A DNA stretch of 33,085 bases, taken from NCBI GenBank assembly GCA_903865885.1, contig CAIPLJ010000071.1:1-33085 (forward strand), in the 5' to 3' direction. A model generated the notes under the pieces. It was not told where the DNA came from and did no database searches. It was given only the letters and a program-made list of their open reading frames with translations. Shown in pieces: positions 254 through 11,051 of the stretch. Position numbers and translations under genes: made by a program. Numbering within the stretch: the stretch's first letter is position 1; every line of letters begins with the position of its first letter. The stretch comes from an uncultured Actinomycetes bacterium (GTDB lineage: Bacteria > Actinomycetota > Actinomycetes > Nanopelagicales > Nanopelagicaceae).

Positions 254-901
254 ATGCCCGCAGGAGCCAAGAAGGCCGTTGCCCCAGATAAGGGGCGTAA
301 AGCTGCCTATGTCATGCGTAATCGCGAGGCTCTCCTGCGTTCAACCCAAGAAGTTTTAGCGGACAAGGGGCAGGCGGTCACTATTGAAGATATTGCTGAC
401 CATGCCCAAGTGGCAGTCAGCACCATCTATAAGCACTTCTCAGATAAGGAAGCCTTGATTTCGGCCACGATGTTGTGGGGATTTGCCGAGTGGATGACAC
501 AAGTTCAATCTTTGGCAGATCACTTGGATGAGCCTTTAGAGAAGCTTGTCTTGCCCATGCGTCTTTTTGTGCGAGTTAAATCAACGCACCCCTCTCATGC
601 TCGCAATATTGTCAATTTCCTTGACATCACAACCCAGTTTCTTCCAGTCCTTGAATCTGAGTTGAGCCAACATATCCAAGAGCTTACAAAGGCAAAGTTG
701 TTAACTTGTGATGACCCCGATGTCGCTGCGAGAAATCTCCAAGCAGTTCTTCTCTCAACGGTTATCAACCAAGTGACCAATCACAAAGCAAAGGTTGAAG
801 ACGCTGATGCTTCAATCAGAGTTGCACTCAAAATGGTGGGAATATCAGAGGTTAAGGCCCACAAACTTACTGAATCTAAGATTCCAGAGTTTACAGACTA
901 G
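254..901 (+). CDS. TetR/AcrR family transcriptional regulator
   Basis: N-terminal HTH signature RNREALLRSTQEVLADKGQAVTIEDIADHAQVAVSTIYKHFSDKEALISA. Confidence 0.9.
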   Translation: MPAGAKKAVAPDKGRKAAYVMRNREALLRSTQEVLADKGQAVTIEDIADHAQVAVSTIYKHFSDKEALISATMLWGFAEWMTQVQSLADHLDEPLEKLVLPMRLFVRVKSTHPSHARNIVNFLDITTQFLPVLESELSQHIQELTKAKLLTCDDPDVAARNLQAVLLSTVINQVTNHKAKVEDADASIRVALKMVGISEVKAHKLTESKIPEFTD

Positions 902-1296
902 GCAAGAAGTTCAGCAAGTAACTTCTCAACGCGGGCTTTAATATCATCGCGAATCACGCGTACTGATTCAATCCCCTGTCCTGCAGGATCATCAAGCACC
1001 CAATCTTCATAACGCTTTCCTGGGTAGAACGGGCATGCATCGCCGCATCCCATGGTCACGACTGCATCTGATGCTTGTACTGCCTCTGGTGTCAGAATCT
1101 TGGGGGTGTTATTTGCAATATCAATTCCGACTTCAGCCATCGCTTCAACTGCGACTGGATTGATGGAATCTTTAGGAGCAGAACCTGCGGAGAGGACTTC
1201 AACTCGACCTTGTCCTAGTTCGCGCATAAATCCTGCTGCCATCTGTGAACGGCCTGCATTGTGGACACAGACGAAGAGAACGCTTGGCTTACTCAT
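898..1296 (-). CDS. arsC: Arsenate reductase, low-molecular-weight protein tyrosine phosphatase type
   Basis: MSKPSVLFVCVHNAGRSQMAAGF contains the CxxNxxRS P-loop; also GCGDACPFYPGKRYEDWVLDDPAGQ. Confidence 0.9.
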   Translation of the reverse strand: MSKPSVLFVCVHNAGRSQMAAGFMRELGQGRVEVLSAGSAPKDSINPVAVEAMAEVGIDIANNTPKILTPEAVQASDAVVTMGCGDACPFYPGKRYEDWVLDDPAGQGIESVRVIRDDIKARVEKLLAELLA

Positions 1297-1962
1297 TTAT
1301 TTTCCTGACTTTGATTTAGTTGTGATGAATGAGAATCCGAGATATCCAAGAATTGCACCCACAATTTGAGCTGCAATAAATGCTGGAACAGATGAGAGCT
1401 TGATTCCTGAGAATGAATCGGTAAGGCTTCGAGCGATTGTCACAGCAGGGTTAGCAAATGAAGTAGAGGATGTGAAGAAGTAAGCAGCGCCAATCCATGC
1501 AGCAACAAGGCGTGGAATCTTCTTATCGATTCCTTGTTTAACGGCAAGGAAGATAATGAAAATAAGGCCAGCGGAGGCAATTACTTCTCCCAGTAGAAGG
1601 TGTCCGCCACTTCGAAGATGTTGAGAAGGTTCGATCGCCGGATGTTGAAACATGAGGTTTGCTAATACTGCGCCTAATGATCCGCCAAGAATTTGTGCGA
1701 TGACAAATGAGATTGCATGTGACAGAGATAAATCTTTGCGGAAGAAAGCGATCCCGCTGACAAGAGGATTAAAGTGCGCTCCGCTAATGGGGGCAAAGAG
1801 AGTAATGAGAGTGTAGAGAACAAAAACTGTAGCAATGGTGTTGATCAGAAGTTCAACGCCAATATCGGTGCTGAGGTTGGCTGCCATGATGCCTGAACCA
1901 ACGACTGTAGCGACAAGGGTTGCCGTGCCGACAAACTCTGCAAAGAGGCGCTTACGAATCAT
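1297..1962 (-). CDS. MIP/aquaporin family channel (likely aquaglyceroporin linked to arsC)
   Basis: AEFVGTATLVATVVGSG, SGAHFNPLVS and FANPAVTIARSLTDSFSGI; the two NPA-type motifs are NPL and NPA. Start chosen at MIRKRLFAEF (RBS-like GGAGC); the stop directly abuts the arsC start. Confidence 0.88.
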   Translation of the reverse strand: MIRKRLFAEFVGTATLVATVVGSGIMAANLSTDIGVELLINTIATVFVLYTLITLFAPISGAHFNPLVSGIAFFRKDLSLSHAISFVIAQILGGSLGAVLANLMFQHPAIEPSQHLRSGGHLLLGEVIASAGLIFIIFLAVKQGIDKKIPRLVAAWIGAAYFFTSSTSFANPAVTIARSLTDSFSGIKLSSVPAFIAAQIVGAILGYLGFSFITTKSKSGK

Positions 1963-1993
1963 CACTTGCTCCAAATCATGAGAAACTGTGCTT

Positions 1994-2680
1994 ATGCAAC
2001 GCACGGTCGCCTACTTCTTCAGTATACCTCGCAAGAGTATTCCATTTGCCTTCGCCAGCATGGCAATTGACCGCCTTCGCACTCGCTTGTTTACTGGAAT
2101 TTCATTTTCAAAGTTGCTTGGAACTGGAACTGGCAAGACTTTTACGCCCAGTGATGCAGACCTGACTCGATGGGGCATGGTTGTGGTGGTTGATGAGAAT
2201 CAAATTGCTGCGTTCGACCAATCGCCGATTGTGAAAAACTGGCGCAAGAGATCGACTTCAGAGTTTTGTGCAGTGTTGGCTCCACTCTCATCGCATGGTT
2301 TATGGGCAAAGAAGAATCCATTTGATTTCACTTCTCCACTTTCACATCCAGATGCACAGATTGCTGCAATTACTCGTGCGCGCATCAAGTGGAATAAGAA
2401 CTTCACTTTTTGGGGCGCAGTCCCACCTGTTGTCACCGATCTTCACAATTCACCAGGTCTGATTGCGGCAATAGGAATTGGTGAAGCGCCTATCGGTTTG
2501 CAAGGAACTTTCTCTCTGTGGCAATCAGCATCTGCGTTGCGAGACTTTGCTTATAAAGGAAAGGCCCACCAAGTAGCGATTGCACAGACTGAATCCATTG
2601 GTTGGTATAGCGAAGAACTCTTTGCACGCTTTGAAGTCCTTGAACTTCGCGGGCAAATTACTGCCACAGCAGGCAAGTAA
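1994..2680 (+). CDS. CrtA-like (spheroidene monooxygenase-like) carotenoid oxygenase
   Basis: FSKLLGTGTGKTFTP, GLIAAIGIGEAPIGLQGTFSLWQS and GWYSEELFARFEVLELRG resemble conserved CrtA segments as remembered; located directly upstream of carotenoid genes. ATG at 1994 preferred over GTG at 1988. Confidence 0.7.
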   Translation: MQRTVAYFFSIPRKSIPFAFASMAIDRLRTRLFTGISFSKLLGTGTGKTFTPSDADLTRWGMVVVVDENQIAAFDQSPIVKNWRKRSTSEFCAVLAPLSSHGLWAKKNPFDFTSPLSHPDAQIAAITRARIKWNKNFTFWGAVPPVVTDLHNSPGLIAAIGIGEAPIGLQGTFSLWQSASALRDFAYKGKAHQVAIAQTESIGWYSEELFARFEVLELRGQITATAGK

Positions 2681-2694
2681 GGCAGACTTAGGCC

Positions 2695-3504
2695 ATGTCG
2701 ATTCGCCACTACAACCCGCGTCGTGGGCGCCGTGGCGGAATATCTCCGAAAGCTCGCAACTTCTTATTTCTCCTGGTGGGGCTAACAATTCTGTTGCAGA
2801 TTTCTTATCCACTTATTCACGGCACTGCACTTCGCATCGTGACTATCGCAACCGTGTACATCGCTGCACTTGCAATGGTGATGCATGGACATCTCGCGTA
2901 TGGTGCAAAATATTCAACCCGCTATCTCCCGATTACTGCGCTCTTTGGTCTTGGAGTAGAGGTACTTGGCGTACATACCGGTTGGCCATTTGGTATCTAT
3001 CAATATGACTCATCGCTAGGCCAAGCAATATTTGGTGTACCACTTGTCGTTCCATTTGCATGGGTGATGATGGTGCATCCAGCACTCATCGCAGCTCGTC
3101 GTATCGCAGGAAATTGGGTCTTTCTCTATGGCGGCGCAGTGCTTGCGGCATGGGATTTATTCCTAGATCCACAAATGGTTGCAGCAGGTAGATGGAAATG
3201 GGAGGTAACTGGTTCTCACGTTCCATTTACTCCAGATATTCCACTCTCTAATGCATTTGGTTGGATGCTCGCAGGATTAGTCATAGTCGGCCTGTTGCAC
3301 CTTGTTCTTCCACGTGAGCGACGCAAGGCAGGAGCATCACTTGCTGCAGTCGATGCGCTCTTGCTCTGGACTCTCTTTGCAGGATTTGTTGGCAATTTAT
3401 TTTTCTTTGACCGACCAGGGCTTGCACTCTTAGGAACTGCGATTTTGGGAGCTCTCTTGATTCCTTACTTCTTCTCCAGCTGGCTCAGCGGCAAGAATCA
3501 ATAA
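2695..3504 (+). CDS. cruF: Carotenoid biosynthesis protein, CruF-like (DUF422) carotenoid 1,2-hydratase
   Basis: Multi-pass membrane protein with GWPFGIYQYDSSLGQAIFGVPLVVPFAWVMMVHPALIAAR and AAWDLFLDPQMVAAGRWKW, characteristic of the CruF family. Confidence 0.8.
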   Translation: MSIRHYNPRRGRRGGISPKARNFLFLLVGLTILLQISYPLIHGTALRIVTIATVYIAALAMVMHGHLAYGAKYSTRYLPITALFGLGVEVLGVHTGWPFGIYQYDSSLGQAIFGVPLVVPFAWVMMVHPALIAARRIAGNWVFLYGGAVLAAWDLFLDPQMVAAGRWKWEVTGSHVPFTPDIPLSNAFGWMLAGLVIVGLLHLVLPRERRKAGASLAAVDALLLWTLFAGFVGNLFFFDRPGLALLGTAILGALLIPYFFSSWLSGKNQ

Positions 3505-3507
3505 TCA

Positions 3508-4581
3508 ATGTTCCAAATTCTCCTGGTACTAAACTTTCTCATCTTTGCAATCTCAGTCATTAATTTTGCAACAATTCGCATGCCTAAGAACGATGAAATT
3601 GTGAGTGGATCTGTCACAGTCATAGTCCCGATGCGCAATGAAGCAGATAATGTCCACGAATGCGTCTCAGCACTTGCAGCTCAGCGCGGAGTCGATAACC
3701 TCAAGGTCATATTGGTCAATGATGCATCGACAGATAAGACGTTAGAGTTTATGCGCGCTGCAACAACTGGCGACAACCGTTTTTCCATTATCGACTCCCC
3801 CGCCCTTCGCCAAGGTTGGCTCGGGAAGGTATCGGCGTTGCAGCATGGATATGACGCGGCTGATTCGGAGTACATCATCACTCTCGATGCCGATGTGCGT
3901 TTAGCTCCAAGCGCACTAGTGCGCGCAGTCAACCAACTAAAGGATCTTCACCTCGATTTCATCTCGCCATATCCACGGCAGGTTGCGCTGACCTTCAGCG
4001 AAAAACTCATTCAGCCACTGTTGCATTGGTCATGGATGAGCACTGTGGTTCTGCGATTAGCAGAGAAATTTCCACGTCGATCAACGGCAGTTGCAAATGG
4101 TCAATTCTTTGTAGTTCGTAAATCCTCACTAGATGCTGCTGTGGGTTTTACTTCAGTGAAGAACCAAATATTGGACGATATCGAACTTGCGCGTTCGCTT
4201 ATTGCTGCGGGATGTAAGGGAGTCGTTACTGAAGGATCAGAGATTGCAAGTACTCGTATGTATGCATCTTTCGATGAAATCCGACAGGGTTATGGAAAAT
4301 CTTTGTGGAAAGCATTTGGAAATCCCATTGGAGCTCTGATTGCAACTCTCTTTATTTTCGCCACAGGAATTCTTCCCGTCCTACTCTTTTTCAGCGGATA
4401 TTCCTTTGGACTTATCCTCTATTTCTATATCGTTCTCACCCGAGCAATGAGCGCTATCCGTTCACACGGTAATCCCCTGCATGCATTTCTCCATCCACTC
4501 TCTAGCGCGCTCCTGATTTATCTCATCATCTATTCATGGGCAAAGCGCGGAAGTATTCAGTGGAAGGGTCGCACGGTATGA
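3508..4581 (+). CDS. Glycosyltransferase family 2, probable carotenoid glycosyltransferase (CruG/CrtQ-like)
   Basis: GT-A motifs VTVIVPMRNEADNVHECVSAL, VNDASTDKTLEF, ITLDADVRL, plus C-terminal TM segments; next to cruF and a crtD-like gene. Confidence 0.8.
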   Translation: MFQILLVLNFLIFAISVINFATIRMPKNDEIVSGSVTVIVPMRNEADNVHECVSALAAQRGVDNLKVILVNDASTDKTLEFMRAATTGDNRFSIIDSPALRQGWLGKVSALQHGYDAADSEYIITLDADVRLAPSALVRAVNQLKDLHLDFISPYPRQVALTFSEKLIQPLLHWSWMSTVVLRLAEKFPRRSTAVANGQFFVVRKSSLDAAVGFTSVKNQILDDIELARSLIAAGCKGVVTEGSEIASTRMYASFDEIRQGYGKSLWKAFGNPIGALIATLFIFATGILPVLLFFSGYSFGLILYFYIVLTRAMSAIRSHGNPLHAFLHPLSSALLIYLIIYSWAKRGSIQWKGRTV

Positions 4582-6086
4582 CCGGCCACGTAGGTAAAGT
4601 AAAAAATCCAGAACGCATTGCAATTGTCGGTGCAGGAATCGGTGGATTGTGTACTGCAGCGCGCTTGGCCAAAGCTGGCCACAACGTCACAATCTTTGAA
4701 GCATCGCATCGCACCGGTGGAAAATGTCGCACCGAATGGATTGGTCGCTACGCATTTGATACTGGTCCGTCGCTACTCACTCTTCCCGCTGTCTATCGTG
4801 ATTTCTTTCAGCGCACGGGCGATGTCATGGGTCGCGTACTTGAATTACAGGAAGTAAACCCATCATTTGATTATCGATTCCACGATGGAAAATCCGTCAA
4901 GTTTGCAAACTTATCTCGCAAGAAGACGCTTGCATCTATCGAGGAATCACTGGGTGCAGAGGCTGCAGCCGAATGGGATCAAGCCCTATTGCAGGCAGAG
5001 GCTATGTGGGATGTATCCCGCGAACCATTTATTGAATCTGAATTGAAATCACCGGCATCCCTACTCAAACGTCCGCGTTTGCTCAAAGATCTCAAGACCA
5101 TTTCACCGTGGAAATCTCTTCGTGGGTTAAATATCAAGAATCCGTACCTTGCAAAAATCATGGATCGTTATGCAACCTATAGCGGTTCGGACCCGCGCTT
5201 TGCTCCAGCGGTTCTTTCCACTATCGCCTTTGTTGAAGAGGCATTCGGTGCTTGGCATATCCAGGGTGGAATCGGCACTCTCTCAGAGAAAATTACAGAG
5301 CGATGCGAGAAGTTGGGCGTGGATATTCGCCTTAACTCTTATGTCCAAGAGATCACACTCACTGGTGGCAAGGTCTCAGGCATTATGGTCAACGGACACC
5401 GAGAAAGTTTTGATCGGGTCGTTGCCAATGCTGATGCGCAATTTGTCTATGAGAAGTTACTGGCTCCTACAAACAAGGTAGTCAAGATCCGCAAGCAACT
5501 CTCAAAGCAAGAGCCATCACTTGCTGGTTTCTCACTCCTTCTTGGCCTCAAACCATCGCATGCCGAAGCGCTTGAACATCACACTATTTTATTCCCCGAA
5601 AATTATGACCTCGAATTTGAATCTATATTTACAACCAAGACACCTGTCGAAAAACCCACCATCTATATATGCGCACCGCGCGATCCGCTGATGGTCAAAG
5701 ATAAGGGCCACGAAGCCTGGTTCGTCTTGGTCAATGCGCCTCGCCACAGTTCAACCGGTGATAGTTTCGATTGGAGCGATGAGAACTTCAATCGACAGTA
5801 CGCAAATTCCATCATTGATCAGATTGAAGCTGCTGGAATTCCAATTCGCGAAAGACTTGAAGTACTTGAAATTCGCACTCCTCTAGATTTACAAACAAGC
5901 GTCAACGCACCTGGTGGTTCGATTTATGGAACATCGAGTAATGGAGCGCGCTCTGCCTTCGCTCGCGCCAAGAATCGCTCGCCAATTAAAGGTCTGTACT
6001 TAGTGGGTGGATCTGCTCATCCTGGTGGAGGGTTGCCTCTTGTGGGATTAAGCGCCGAAATGGTTGCGCTAGCTATCCTCGACTAG
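4578..6086 (+). CDS. Phytoene desaturase-family FAD oxidoreductase, CrtD-like (hydroxycarotenoid 3,4-desaturase?)
   Basis: Rossmann motif IAIVGAGIGGLCTAARLAKAGHNVTIFEA; C-terminal LYLVGGSAHPGGGLPLVGLSAEMVALA. ATGA overlap with the upstream GT stop; distinct from the second desaturase at 8688. Confidence 0.8.
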   Translation: MTGHVGKVKNPERIAIVGAGIGGLCTAARLAKAGHNVTIFEASHRTGGKCRTEWIGRYAFDTGPSLLTLPAVYRDFFQRTGDVMGRVLELQEVNPSFDYRFHDGKSVKFANLSRKKTLASIEESLGAEAAAEWDQALLQAEAMWDVSREPFIESELKSPASLLKRPRLLKDLKTISPWKSLRGLNIKNPYLAKIMDRYATYSGSDPRFAPAVLSTIAFVEEAFGAWHIQGGIGTLSEKITERCEKLGVDIRLNSYVQEITLTGGKVSGIMVNGHRESFDRVVANADAQFVYEKLLAPTNKVVKIRKQLSKQEPSLAGFSLLLGLKPSHAEALEHHTILFPENYDLEFESIFTTKTPVEKPTIYICAPRDPLMVKDKGHEAWFVLVNAPRHSSTGDSFDWSDENFNRQYANSIIDQIEAAGIPIRERLEVLEIRTPLDLQTSVNAPGGSIYGTSSNGARSAFARAKNRSPIKGLYLVGGSAHPGGGLPLVGLSAEMVALAILD

Positions 6087-6714
6087 TCAATACTTTCTTA
6101 GCCGCTCGCATTACCTGCACAAAACTAAATAAAAGAAGTCCAAGGAATGCATATGACATCTGCAAAGTGCCTGGAATATCGAAGATATAAAAGAGAAGTG
6201 CAAAGGCCATAAAAATTGCACGTACGGGTCTTTCAGTTGGAGTTACAACACCAACTTCTGAATGCCCAAGAGATGCAAGGCGTGCGCGTGCATACTCTTG
6301 CGTTGATGCAACGGTCCACATTGTGATGACCAACCACGCAGGAATTCCTAGTCGCCAACCCATATAAAGCCAGAAAGCTTCAGAAATACGATCGGCAACA
6401 GAATCAAGAACAGATCCCCATTTGCTTTCGCTTCCACGCACAATCGCAACGCTTCCATCGATGCCATCGAAGAAGAGAGATATCGCTAGCAAGAGAAGTG
6501 AAATGGCTGCATAGGTAGAAAGTCCCATTGCGATTGCAGTACCAAGGCCCAAGAAAGTCAGAAAGTTTGGGGAAATGCGAAGAGCTGCGCATACGCGTCC
6601 CGCTTGATAGGAGAAACGTAACCAGGCACCGACGACGCCTTCGACATCTGCGCCGCCGTGCAACTGACTCCAGCGCTCTTTAAATTGCCGTTCAGACATT
6701 GGAATGGCTGTCAT
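6073..6714 (-). CDS. CDP-alcohol phosphatidyltransferase family protein
   Basis: FFDGIDGSVAIVRGSESKWGSVLDSVADR matches a variant CDP-alcohol phosphotransferase motif; several TM segments. ATGA overlap with the metF stop. Confidence 0.8.
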   Translation of the reverse strand: MTAIPMSERQFKERWSQLHGGADVEGVVGAWLRFSYQAGRVCAALRISPNFLTFLGLGTAIAMGLSTYAAISLLLLAISLFFDGIDGSVAIVRGSESKWGSVLDSVADRISEAFWLYMGWRLGIPAWLVITMWTVASTQEYARARLASLGHSEVGVVTPTERPVRAIFMAFALLFYIFDIPGTLQMSYAFLGLLLFSFVQVMRAAKKVLTSRG

Positions 6715-7619
6715 CGCTCATCCTTGAGCTGAGAATAGATTTCGCGAGTAGCAGTTGATGTATTCATTGTGTAGAAATGAAGGCCAGGAGCCCCTTCTTC
6801 AAGTAAGTCTTGGCAGAGCTTGGTTGCAATTTCAACACCGAGCTTACGAACATCCTCAGGCTTATCTTCAATCTTTGCAAAGGCGCTAGAGATATCAGAG
6901 GGAATAGCCACGCCACTTAACTCAGCCATTCGATTGAGTTGCTTCACATTTGTAATGGGAAGAATGCCCGGAATGATCGGAAGTGTGGATCCTTTAGCAG
7001 CTAACTTATCGACTAGTGATTTCCACTTATCTGCTTCAAAGAAGAATTGAGTTGTTGCAAAAGTTGCACCACGCTTTTCCTTTTCCAGCAATACATCTAC
7101 ATCTTTATTGAAATCTCCTTGTGATGCGGGATGTCCATCTGGAAATGCTGCAACGCCAATAGTGAATCCCCCAAATTCAGCAGCGAGTGTTACTAATTCA
7201 TCTGCGTGATTGAGGCCACCGTCAGTTGTGCTCCATGGCGCCTGTGGTCCGCCAGTAGGGTCTCCGCGAAGTGCCAAAATACTTTTGATGCCTGCATCGC
7301 GATATTTTCCGAGAATGTCGAGTAACTCTGCACGAGTAGAACCAACGCAGGTTAAATGGGCAACGGTAGGAATATGTGTGCGAGCAGTAATTTCTGAGGT
7401 AATACGAATAGTGCGATCGCGCGTTGATCCACCTGCGCCATAGGTCACAGAGATGAAATCAGGGGCGATAGATTCAAGCTGTGACATTGCAGCCCAGAGT
7501 CGTTCTTCACCTTCAATATCTTTAGGTGGGAAGAATTCAAAGGAGTAGGTCAAGCCACTCTTCACGCTGCGCATCTCCACGGCGTCAGGATATCGTTGCG
7601 CCGTGGATAAAGAGGTCAT
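6711..7619 (-). CDS. metF: Methylenetetrahydrofolate reductase
   Basis: LTYSFEFFPPKDIEGEERLWAAMSQLESIAPDFISVTYGAGGSTRDRT, HLTCVGSTRAELLDILG, GDFNKDVDVLLEKEKRGATFATTQFFFE. Start may instead be ATG at 7574 (MRSVKSGLTYSFEFFPPKD). Confidence 0.93.
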   Translation of the reverse strand: MTSLSTAQRYPDAVEMRSVKSGLTYSFEFFPPKDIEGEERLWAAMSQLESIAPDFISVTYGAGGSTRDRTIRITSEITARTHIPTVAHLTCVGSTRAELLDILGKYRDAGIKSILALRGDPTGGPQAPWSTTDGGLNHADELVTLAAEFGGFTIGVAAFPDGHPASQGDFNKDVDVLLEKEKRGATFATTQFFFEADKWKSLVDKLAAKGSTLPIIPGILPITNVKQLNRMAELSGVAIPSDISSAFAKIEDKPEDVRKLGVEIATKLCQDLLEEGAPGLHFYTMNTSTATREIYSQLKDER

Positions 7620-8688
7620 GATGAGCGCATCCGAGGTGCGCGATGCCGTCAAAGCCGAACTCACACAATATTTAGCTGAACAACGCGACTATCTCACTAG
7701 CATCGCATCTGAATTAGTACCTGTCTGCGATGCCCTCGAAGATTATCTTCTCGAAGGTGGAAAGCGACTGCGTCCTCTCTTTGCCTATGCCGGATTTATG
7801 GCAGCGGGATCAACTCCTAGCCGCACCGATATTCGTGCGATGGCAAGCCTTGAATTACTTCAAGCATGTGCACTCATTCATGATGATTTGATGGATGGCT
7901 CCGATACACGTCGCGGAAAGCCAGCAATCCATCGCCACTTTGAAAATCTTCATCGTCAAGGTTCGATGGCAGGAGTTGCAGATCAATTTGGAGAAGCTGC
8001 AGCAGTATTGCTCGGAGATCTCGCACTCGTCTGGTCTGATCACATGTTGCACAACAGTGGACTTTCCCACGAATCACTGACTTCAGCCCTTCGTGTTCAC
8101 GATGAAATGCGTATCGAACTTATGGCAGGTCAATATCTTGATGTCCGTGAAGCCGGTGAACGCGAACATAGCGTTGAGCGATCACTGCGCATCGCGCGTT
8201 ACAAATCAGGTAAGTACACAATCGAGCGTCCTCTGCACTTAGGTGCAGTAATTGCGCGCCCATCTGCTTCTGAGCATTCACAGCTGCTCAATGTGTTATC
8301 CGCCTACGGACTTCCACTCGGTGAAGCGTTCCAATTGCGCGATGACATGCTTGGAATCTTTGGAGATCCGAAAGAGACAGGAAAACCTGCAGGAGATGAC
8401 TTGCGCGAAGGCAAGCGCACAGTATTAATGGCAATGACGATGGAGAAGGCAACAGATGCTGCTCGCGATGAGTTAACGGCGAATTTGGGCAATCCAAACC
8501 TATCTGCAGAAAAGATTGAAACTCTCCGCACCCTGATTACTGATACCGGTGCTGTTGCCGATGTCGAAAAATTGATTGACCGCCTCGGTGAAGAATCAGT
8601 GGCTGCCGCAAACGCAGCAGCAATACATGAAGATGCGCGCCCATTTCTCTTATCTCTCGCTGAGACCGCAATCCGTAGGAGCTATTAA
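7618..8688 (+). CDS. crtE: Polyprenyl (geranylgeranyl) diphosphate synthase
   Basis: GGKRLRPLFAY, LIHDDLMDGSDTRRGKPAIH (first Asp-rich motif), FQLRDDMLGIFGDPKETGKPAGDDLREGKRT (second Asp-rich motif). Start at ATG 7618 or 7621. Confidence 0.92.
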   Translation: MMSASEVRDAVKAELTQYLAEQRDYLTSIASELVPVCDALEDYLLEGGKRLRPLFAYAGFMAAGSTPSRTDIRAMASLELLQACALIHDDLMDGSDTRRGKPAIHRHFENLHRQGSMAGVADQFGEAAAVLLGDLALVWSDHMLHNSGLSHESLTSALRVHDEMRIELMAGQYLDVREAGEREHSVERSLRIARYKSGKYTIERPLHLGAVIARPSASEHSQLLNVLSAYGLPLGEAFQLRDDMLGIFGDPKETGKPAGDDLREGKRTVLMAMTMEKATDAARDELTANLGNPNLSAEKIETLRTLITDTGAVADVEKLIDRLGEESVAAANAAAIHEDARPFLLSLAETAIRRSY

Positions 8689-10172
8689 TGACAAAGACAG
8701 TTAAGGGACCCACGGATCACGTCGTCGTAGTTGGCGCAGGTCTAGGTGGACTCAGCGCAGCTCTTCGCCTAGCGGGTGCTGGTCGCAAAGTCACTGTGAT
8801 TGAACGTGAATCTGTACCAGGTGGTCGTAACGGTCTTCTCAATAAGAATGGCTATTCATTCGATACAGGCCCAACAGTTTTAACAATGCCATCACTGATT
8901 CAAGATGCATTCTCATGTGTTGGAGAAGATATGAAGGATTGGCTTGAACTCATGCCGCTTTCACCTTTGTATCGCGCCTTCTATGCAGATGGCTCACAGA
9001 TTGATGTCCATGCAAATACAGCGCAGATGGAAGAAGAGATTCGCGAAAAGGTTTCTCCTGAAGAAGCCATGGGCTATCGCAAGTATGTAGAGTTTGTTAC
9101 CAAGCTCTATAAGTACGAGATGCATGACTTCATCGATAAGAACATCGATTCACCTCTGAATCTTTTGACTCCTAACTTGGCTCGCTTGATTGCTCTCGGC
9201 GGCTTTAGACACTTGCAGCCAAAGGTCAATCAATACCTCAAAGATCCACGTCTTCAAAAGGTGTATTCATTCCAAGCAATGTATGCCGGTGTCAGCCCAC
9301 AGCAAGCTCTAGCAATTTACGCAGTCATTGCCTATATGGATTCAGTCAACGGAGTCTTCTTCCCTAAGGGCGGAATGCATGCAGTACCTCGCGCACTTGC
9401 AGCAGCAGCAACCAAGCACGGCGTTGAATTTAAATACAACACGACAGTCACTGCTCTTGATAAGCAGAATGGCCGCGTCAAAGCAGTGCTGACAAATACT
9501 GGCGAACGTATTGAATGCGATGTTGTAGTCATGAACCCAGATCTACCTGTCGTGTGGCGTGACTTGCTGGGTAAGACACCACTGAATATCAAGCGCCTGA
9601 ATTACTCTCCATCATGTGCAACTCTCTTGGTCGGATCTTCCAAAAAGTATGACCACGTCGCGCATCACAATATTCACTTCGGCGAGTCTTGGGATGGCGT
9701 ATTTGATGAACTTATCAATAAGAAGATTCTGATGACTGACCCATCTGTTTTGGTTACAGTTCCAACTCATGACGATCCAACACTTGCACCTGCTGGAAAG
9801 CAGTCTTATTACATCTTGTACCCAACCCCGAACTTGGATGCAGATATCGATTGGACCAAGCAGGCAAAGCCATATCGCGATCACATGATTAAGACACTTG
9901 AAGATCGCGGTTATGAAGGCTTTGGTGACTCGATTGAAACTGAAGTTATGACTACTCCCCTTGATTGGCAAGCACAAGGTATGGAGCGCGGTGCACCATT
10001 TGCTAGCGCACATACCTTCTTCCAGACAGGACCCTTTAGACCGCGCAATATGGCGGCAGGATTTGAGAACGTTGTCTTTGCCGGCAGCGGCACTCAACCT
10101 GGCGTTGGTGTACCGATGGTTCTTATCTCAGGTCGCTTAGCGGCAGAGCGCATTGTGGGTCCGGTTAAATAG
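8688..10172 (+). CDS. crtI: Phytoene desaturase
   Basis: VVVVGAGLGGLSAALRLAGAGRKVTVIERESVPGGRNG, SFDTGPTVLTMPSLI, FPKGGMHAVPRAL, AGSGTQPGVGVPMVLISGRLAAERI. TAATG overlap with the crtE stop. Confidence 0.95.
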   Translation: MTKTVKGPTDHVVVVGAGLGGLSAALRLAGAGRKVTVIERESVPGGRNGLLNKNGYSFDTGPTVLTMPSLIQDAFSCVGEDMKDWLELMPLSPLYRAFYADGSQIDVHANTAQMEEEIREKVSPEEAMGYRKYVEFVTKLYKYEMHDFIDKNIDSPLNLLTPNLARLIALGGFRHLQPKVNQYLKDPRLQKVYSFQAMYAGVSPQQALAIYAVIAYMDSVNGVFFPKGGMHAVPRALAAAATKHGVEFKYNTTVTALDKQNGRVKAVLTNTGERIECDVVVMNPDLPVVWRDLLGKTPLNIKRLNYSPSCATLLVGSSKKYDHVAHHNIHFGESWDGVFDELINKKILMTDPSVLVTVPTHDDPTLAPAGKQSYYILYPTPNLDADIDWTKQAKPYRDHMIKTLEDRGYEGFGDSIETEVMTTPLDWQAQGMERGAPFASAHTFFQTGPFRPRNMAAGFENVVFAGSGTQPGVGVPMVLISGRLAAERIVGPVK

Positions 10173-11051
10173 ATGGATGCAGCACTTGCAGCATCGTATG
10201 CAGAGTGCAAACGATTAAATTCGTTGCATGGAAAGACATATTACTTAGCAACACTGCTGCTGCCGAAGAATAAGCGTCCTTACGTACATGCTCTCTACGG
10301 TTTTGCGCGATACGCCGATGAAATTGTGGATGACTTGGCTTCAACGCTTTCTCCCAGCGAGAAAGCAGACGCACTTCGCACATGGAGCACAGGTGTACTT
10401 GCAGATTTAAAGGCTGGGACAAGCACCGACCATATTGGTCGCGCGCTTGTCGATACAGCGCACACCTTTGATATTCCACATCAACATTTCGTCGATTTTC
10501 TCCATTCGATGGAGATGGATCTGACCGTTACCGAATATCAGACCTATGAAGATTTACTTGAGTACGTCTATGGATCAGCTGCAGTCATCGGCCTTGAGAT
10601 GGTTCCTGTTCTGGGATATTCCGATCAACGCGCATTTGAGGCTGCAAAGAAGTTGGGTATCGCATTCCAGCTAGCCAACTTCATTCGCGATGTCGGCGAA
10701 GACCTTGATCGAGGTCGTGTCTATTTGCCGCTACAAGAATTGGCTCAATTTGGCGTTGATCGTGCGATGCTTGAACGCCGCGTATTAACTCCTGAAATTG
10801 TTGCAGCTCTTAAGTTCCAAATAGCTCGCGTTCGACGATTACAATGCGAATCAGATGTCGGTATTGATTTTCTCGATAAACAATCACGTCCATGCATCCG
10901 GGCAGCCAGCGAGCTCTATTGCGGAATCGTCGATGAAGTCGAAGCAATCGGTTATGACATCTTCAATAAACGAGCAAAGACTTCAACTGCTCGCCGCGCA
11001 CGCGTTGCGGGCCGTGCCTATATTCAAGCAATAGCAGCCCGTATTCGCTAA
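10173..11051 (+). CDS. crtB: Phytoene synthase
   Basis: KTYYLATLLLPKNKRPYVHALYGFARYADEIVDD and LGIAFQLANFIRDVGEDLDRGRVYLP (squalene/phytoene synthase signatures). Confidence 0.95.
   Translation: MDAALAASYAECKRLNSLHGKTYYLATLLLPKNKRPYVHALYGFARYADEIVDDLASTLSPSEKADALRTWSTGVLADLKAGTSTDHIGRALVDTAHTFDIPHQHFVDFLHSMEMDLTVTEYQTYEDLLEYVYGSAAVIGLEMVPVLGYSDQRAFEAAKKLGIAFQLANFIRDVGEDLDRGRVYLPLQELAQFGVDRAMLERRVLTPEIVAALKFQIARVRRLQCESDVGIDFLDKQSRPCIRAASELYCGIVDEVEAIGYDIFNKRAKTSTARRARVAGRAYIQAIAARIR

Follow-up and report, generated by a model that had tools for sequence, protein, structure and literature searches.

A CrtA-family carotenoid oxygenase gene in a conserved carotenoid gene block of freshwater actinobacteria

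Few cells are as common in lakes as the rhodopsin-carrying freshwater actinobacteria of the acI group (Nanopelagicales, Planktophila). The window analyzed here, a stretch of 33,085 nucleotides from a member of the Nanopelagicaceae, contains an open reading frame at 1994-2680 (+) whose product was described preliminarily as resembling CrtA, the carotenoid monooxygenase best known from purple bacteria. This locus raises the question of whether the gene is a genuine crtA, how it came to be in an actinobacterial genome and which reaction its product would carry out. Within the open-licence literature covered by our search, nothing linked crtA to Planktophila or Nanopelagicales.

The crtA-family gene (1994..2680, + strand) encodes 228 amino acids from an ATG at 1994, an assignment based on a match to the NCBIfam profile NF045923, on the alignment with alphaproteobacterial CrtA and on conservation in the genus. 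Translation could also begin at an in-frame GTG at 1988, which would lengthen the product by two residues, and CrtA of the near relative L002 likewise begins with MQ where ATG 1994 falls. In the profile search, NF045923 (SpheroidMoxCrtARhod, spheroidene monooxygenase) was the sole NCBIfam family matching at E<=1, with an E-value of 8.9e-44 and 149.5 bits, and the match spans residues 17-223 of the form starting at 1988 (207 residues) and profile positions 16-222 of 226. The curated cut-off of this Rhodobacter-type equivalog is 300 bits, and as the product misses it, the protein is homologous to the equivalog but lies outside it. The three motifs quoted in the preliminary description (FSKLLGTGTGKTFTP, GIGEAPIGLQGTFSLWQS and GWYSEELFARFEVL) were all found in the translation, where they align within motif blocks common to this product and the alphaproteobacterial plasmid CrtA. 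The latter carry the annotation spheroidene monooxygenase and are encoded on photosynthesis plasmids of Tateyamaria, Sulfitobacter and Roseinatronobacter, where their genes are followed by bchI; they show 30-31% identity to the product. Invariant columns in this alignment (A2) include TRA 127-129, GxGE 161-164, Q170, H192, W204, EEL 207-209 and ARF 211-213. Judged from its sequence, the open reading frame encodes a genuine CrtA-family protein and the claimed resemblance is upheld; chance similarity or a wrong reading frame is ruled out by the profile match and the alignment.

An AlphaFold model of the protein (64 sequences) has a pLDDT of 90.7 and a pTM of 0.88 and consists of two ferredoxin-like repeats, so that structure prediction, one of the checks proposed for this gene, gave a confident ferredoxin-like duplicate with PDB neighbours that are partly heme enzymes. 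Among the Foldseek matches to the PDB, the best E-values belong to ABM-type monooxygenases, while the top TM-scores among the matches listed (0.54-0.57 by query length) belong to aldoxime dehydratase; HmoB and coproheme decarboxylase were also found. The neighbours are thus heme proteins together with non-heme monooxygenases sharing the fold. Searches of the PDB by sequence, both single-sequence and profile, gave no real match, no relative was found in viral contigs and the viral fold search returned distant ABM-like matches only. In favour of an alternative, in which the resemblance to CrtA is superficial and the protein belongs to an unrelated family of monooxygenases with this fold (ABM, DUF3291 or heme-degrading), are the fold matches to ABM-type monooxygenases and a sub-threshold DUF3291 hit that was the only Pfam match (E 0.012). 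This reading is highly improbable in view of the full-length CrtA match and the steady position of the gene in a carotenoid block.

Catalysis by purple-bacterial CrtA depends on O2 and reduced ferredoxin, and the enzyme contains a 5-coordinate heme (PMC10604819). In the actinobacterial protein the candidate proximal heme ligand is His192 (numbered from ATG 1994; codon 2567..2569, + strand), the only histidine invariant in alignments A1, A2 and A3. In the model this residue lies at the beginning of helix 190-202, the last helix of the C-terminal repeat, and because it is the sole invariant histidine and sits where this helix begins, we put it forward as the putative ligand.

The preliminary description placed crtA at the opening of a carotenoid operon, and it is indeed the first gene of a crtA-cruF-cruG-crtD block. 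Directly downstream lies a cruF-type carotenoid 1,2-hydratase gene (2695..3504, +; TIGR03460 E 5.8e-33, under the cut-off, and PF04240 E 1.7e-34, over the cut-off), followed by a cruG-like GT2 glycosyltransferase gene (3508..4581, +; Glycos_transf_2 and NF045692 CruG, E 7.1e-39) and a crtD-type 3,4-desaturase gene (4578..6086, +; NF045637 CrtD, E 2.7e-93, 313 bits against a cut-off of 580). The CruG assignment is weak, as this sequence scores 133.8 bits against a curated NF045692 cut-off of 600 and 126.2 bits with HpnB. The crtD product is also over the cut-off of TIGR02734, the crtI family profile; its frame is open from 4536, with an ATG at 4578 that shares nucleotides with the stop codon of cruG. 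Since the intergenic gaps are 14 nt (crtA-cruF) and 3 nt (cruF-cruG) and cruG and crtD overlap, the four genes probably form a single transcript. A scan for sigma-70 promoters and terminators near the block found sites to be rarer than in shuffled sequence. Further downstream are a crtE-type prenyl diphosphate synthase gene (7603..8688, +; polyprenyl_synt PF00348 E 7.2e-52), the phytoene desaturase gene crtI (8688..10172, +; TIGR02734 E 3.7e-159, over the cut-off) and the phytoene synthase gene crtB (10173..11051, +; PF00494 E 2.9e-69; PhytoSynCyanob E 6.2e-57, under the cut-off).

Two further gene pairs were observed around the block. Between crtD and crtE, a CDP-alcohol phosphatidyltransferase-like gene and a metF-like gene, identified by reading their translations, occupy 6073-7664 on the reverse strand, a place which this pair keeps in most freshwater relatives and in some other actinobacteria. 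Divergent from crtA, an arsenate-reductase-like gene and a MIP (aquaporin) channel gene adjoin each other at 898-2004 (-); they are possibly an arsenic export pair of the AqpS/ArsC type, and many relatives also have them beside crtA, in one orientation or the other.

The homologue had been regarded as unusual for an actinobacterium, a view that its distribution does not support. We found crtA in 20 of the 24 other genomes of the genus, the four lacking it being 57-87% complete. A phylum-wide sample of 397 genomes contained 27 with crtA, none of them (0/397) passing the NF045923 cut-off; the gene had also been listed before in Micromonospora genomes (PMC5765111). All 19 genus loci from other genomes have crtA, cruF and cruG together, and the order crtA-cruF-cruG-crtD was found in 67 of 80 named genome loci, recurring in other actinobacterial families. 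Eight of the remaining thirteen loci end inside or shortly past the block and five have no block nearby, namely L137 and four Geodermatophilaceae loci where crtA occurs without the rest of the block inside 8 kb. A CruF-family gene is present in 24 of the 27 genomes with crtA versus 85 of 397 overall (Fisher p 8e-15, kinship not corrected). The gene is thus standard equipment in this freshwater actinobacterial group and no oddity.

Several loci show individual peculiarities. Six from other actinobacteria (L141, L150, L151, L154, L155 and L161) carry an extra weak CrtI/CrtO-like gene, 22-25% identical to CrtD/CrtI, between crtA and cruF. The two-piece matches of cruF in L019 (2229-3019) and of crtA in L160 (8173-8976), which fall in different frames or are separated by a gap, suggest a frameshift or a broken gene. 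Six public MAGs titled Bifidobacterium breve, Fonsibacter lacus or Streptomycetaceae (L067, L081, L087, L104, L112 and L137) have CrtA of the freshwater-actinobacterial type, most of them with the gene block, and these record titles therefore look wrong.

A maximum-likelihood tree of 52 CrtA sequences was rooted on the three alphaproteobacterial sequences. One starred clade (100/97) unites the 21 freshwater-lineage proteins, without exception, with that of MAG L137; it is apart from alphaproteobacterial purple CrtA and nested within actinobacterial sequences plus one from Deinococcus. Correlations of the CrtA protein distances with those of the neighbouring gene products (r 0.84 for CruF, 0.78 for CruG, 0.84 for CrtD and 0.77 for CrtE) are far over permuted values, which argues that crtA travelled together with its neighbour genes. 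A recent horizontal transfer of crtA from purple bacteria, the group from which the family is best known (PMC10604819), is hardly credible given this tree, the prevalence of the gene in the genus and the co-varying distances; such an import is rejected on distribution and tree, and the phylogeny proposed as a test of transfer lends it no support. We tentatively suggest, as a possibility of limited weight, that actinobacterial CrtA is an old C-2 hydroxylase lineage fixed in a crtA-cruF-cruG-crtD block making 1,2-diol carotenoid glycosides in dominant freshwater bacteria, in which case the published Bacteroidetes-only origin of purple CrtA would have to be redrawn with the Actinobacteria.

As for function, we consider it probable (roughly 60%) that CrtA is an oxygenase that uses O2, probably contains heme and attacks C-2 of the psi end, within a block making a hydroxylated, glycosylated carotenoid, and that it performs a single 2-hydroxylation rather than a 2-ketolation. 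In the proposed pathway, CrtE, CrtB and CrtI would produce lycopene, CruF would hydrate the psi end to give a 1-hydroxyl and CrtD would introduce the 3,4 double bond. CrtA would hydroxylate C-2 once with O2, His192 being the probable heme ligand within a dimeric alpha/beta-barrel-type fold, and the CruG-like enzyme would add a sugar to the 2-hydroxyl (or the 1-hydroxyl), the end product being a 1,2-diol carotenoid glycoside. Family membership, predicted fold, gene order and conservation are observations; the heme ligand, step order and final product are inferred, as are the preference for hydroxylation over ketolation and the glycosylated position, both of which are drawn from gene context.

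A close precedent in terms of gene partners is the carotenoid 2-hydroxylase CrtA-OH of the myxol pathway in Flavobacterium P99-3 and Nonlabens, which has cruF and crtD as partners, with crtB and crtI, and is expected to attack C-2 of a 1-hydroxy-3,4-didehydro psi end (PMC11855829). E. coli equipped with flavobacterial CrtA-OH, CruF and CrtD forms the 2-hydroxyl of myxol (PMC11855829), and CrtA is likewise encoded with CruF and CrtD in the window and at 67 of the 80 loci. CruG converts myxol to myxol 2'-glycoside (PMC7029182), which makes a 2-hydroxyl coherent beside a CruG-like gene. Single C-2 hydroxylation followed by glycosylation would be the simplest reading of a crtA with CruF, CrtD and CruG-like neighbours. 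Unlike the CrtA-OH systems, the actinobacterial block has the additional CruG-like glycosyltransferase, and neither a cyclase nor crtZ was found in the window. No Bacteroidota CrtA-OH was found among the plasmids searched, and the genome-contig matches listed are actinobacterial only.

The cyanobacterial CruF/CruG myxol-glycoside pathway shares the CruF-type hydratase and the CruG-like glycosyltransferase but differs in that crtA adjoins cruF/cruG in the window. Sioxanthin is an actinobacterial carotenoid with a 1-O-glycosyl end group bearing a free 2-OH. In a variant of the preferred reading, which is possible though doubtful, C-2 would be hydroxylated but C-1 glycosylated, giving an end group of the phleixanthophyll or sioxanthin type. 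Such end groups occur in actinobacteria, one example being the phleixanthophyll of Nocardia (cited in PMC5822342), and the nearly equal CruG and HpnB scores leave the site unfixed, whereas the top glycosyltransferase profile is CruG, a 2'-O enzyme. Micromonospora and sioxanthin-type pathways are further parallels in that crtA occurs in actinobacterial genomes with proteorhodopsin-family genes, although its function there is an annotation only (PMC5765111).

An outright 2-ketolase like purple CrtA, which would hydroxylate C-2 twice so that dehydration leaves a 2-keto group, with the glycosyltransferase acting on the CruF-made 1-hydroxyl, appears unlikely. The ketolase family is the only named family matched, and the full-length homology, motif blocks, invariant histidine and expected fold and chemistry are shared with purple-bacterial spheroidene monooxygenase, an acyclic carotenoid 2-ketolase. 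On the other side stand a score just half of the family cut-off, the low identity to alphaproteobacterial CrtA and the separate clade; photosynthesis genes are absent around crtA, and a CruG-like gene is constantly adjacent. Unlike the purple-bacterial system, crtA in the window has neither bch nor crtC neighbours, with cruF nearby in place of crtC, and a methoxylated substrate is unexpected. Homology alone leaves the outcome unfixed, since Rubrivivax CrtA groups with the Bacteroidetes hydroxylases yet works as a ketolase (PMC2889829). The suggestion that the homologue may have a different substrate or regiochemistry holds in part: gene context and the CrtA-OH precedent (PMC11855829) point to a likely different outcome (2-hydroxyl, not 2-keto) on a non-methylated end group, while the carbon attacked would be the same.

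With single C-2 hydroxylation as the preferred reading, the final pigment would depend on the other end of the molecule: cyclization would give a glycoside of the myxol/plectaniaxanthin type, and a pathway with no cyclase an acyclic one of the oscillaxanthin type. Neither a lycopene cyclase, including the CrtYc/CrtYd type, nor Blh was found in the 1.13 Mb assembly (83% complete), which has a bacteriorhodopsin-family gene (G000:C130:48-722, L045). A CrtYc/CrtYd-type cyclase over the cut-off is present in 18 of 26 genus genomes, beside blh in some and at about 10 kb or less from crtA in others, so the product may be acyclic or monocyclic depending on the relative.

The actinobacterial crtA corrects a literature in which CrtA is purple-bacteria-specific (PMC10604819) or 'found only in purple bacteria' (PMC11855829). 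The conserved pathway also allows the pigment of acI actinobacteria to be predicted as a carotenoid bearing hydroxyl and sugar groups, which could be tested as a photoprotectant and, with more speculation, as the antenna of a rhodopsin.
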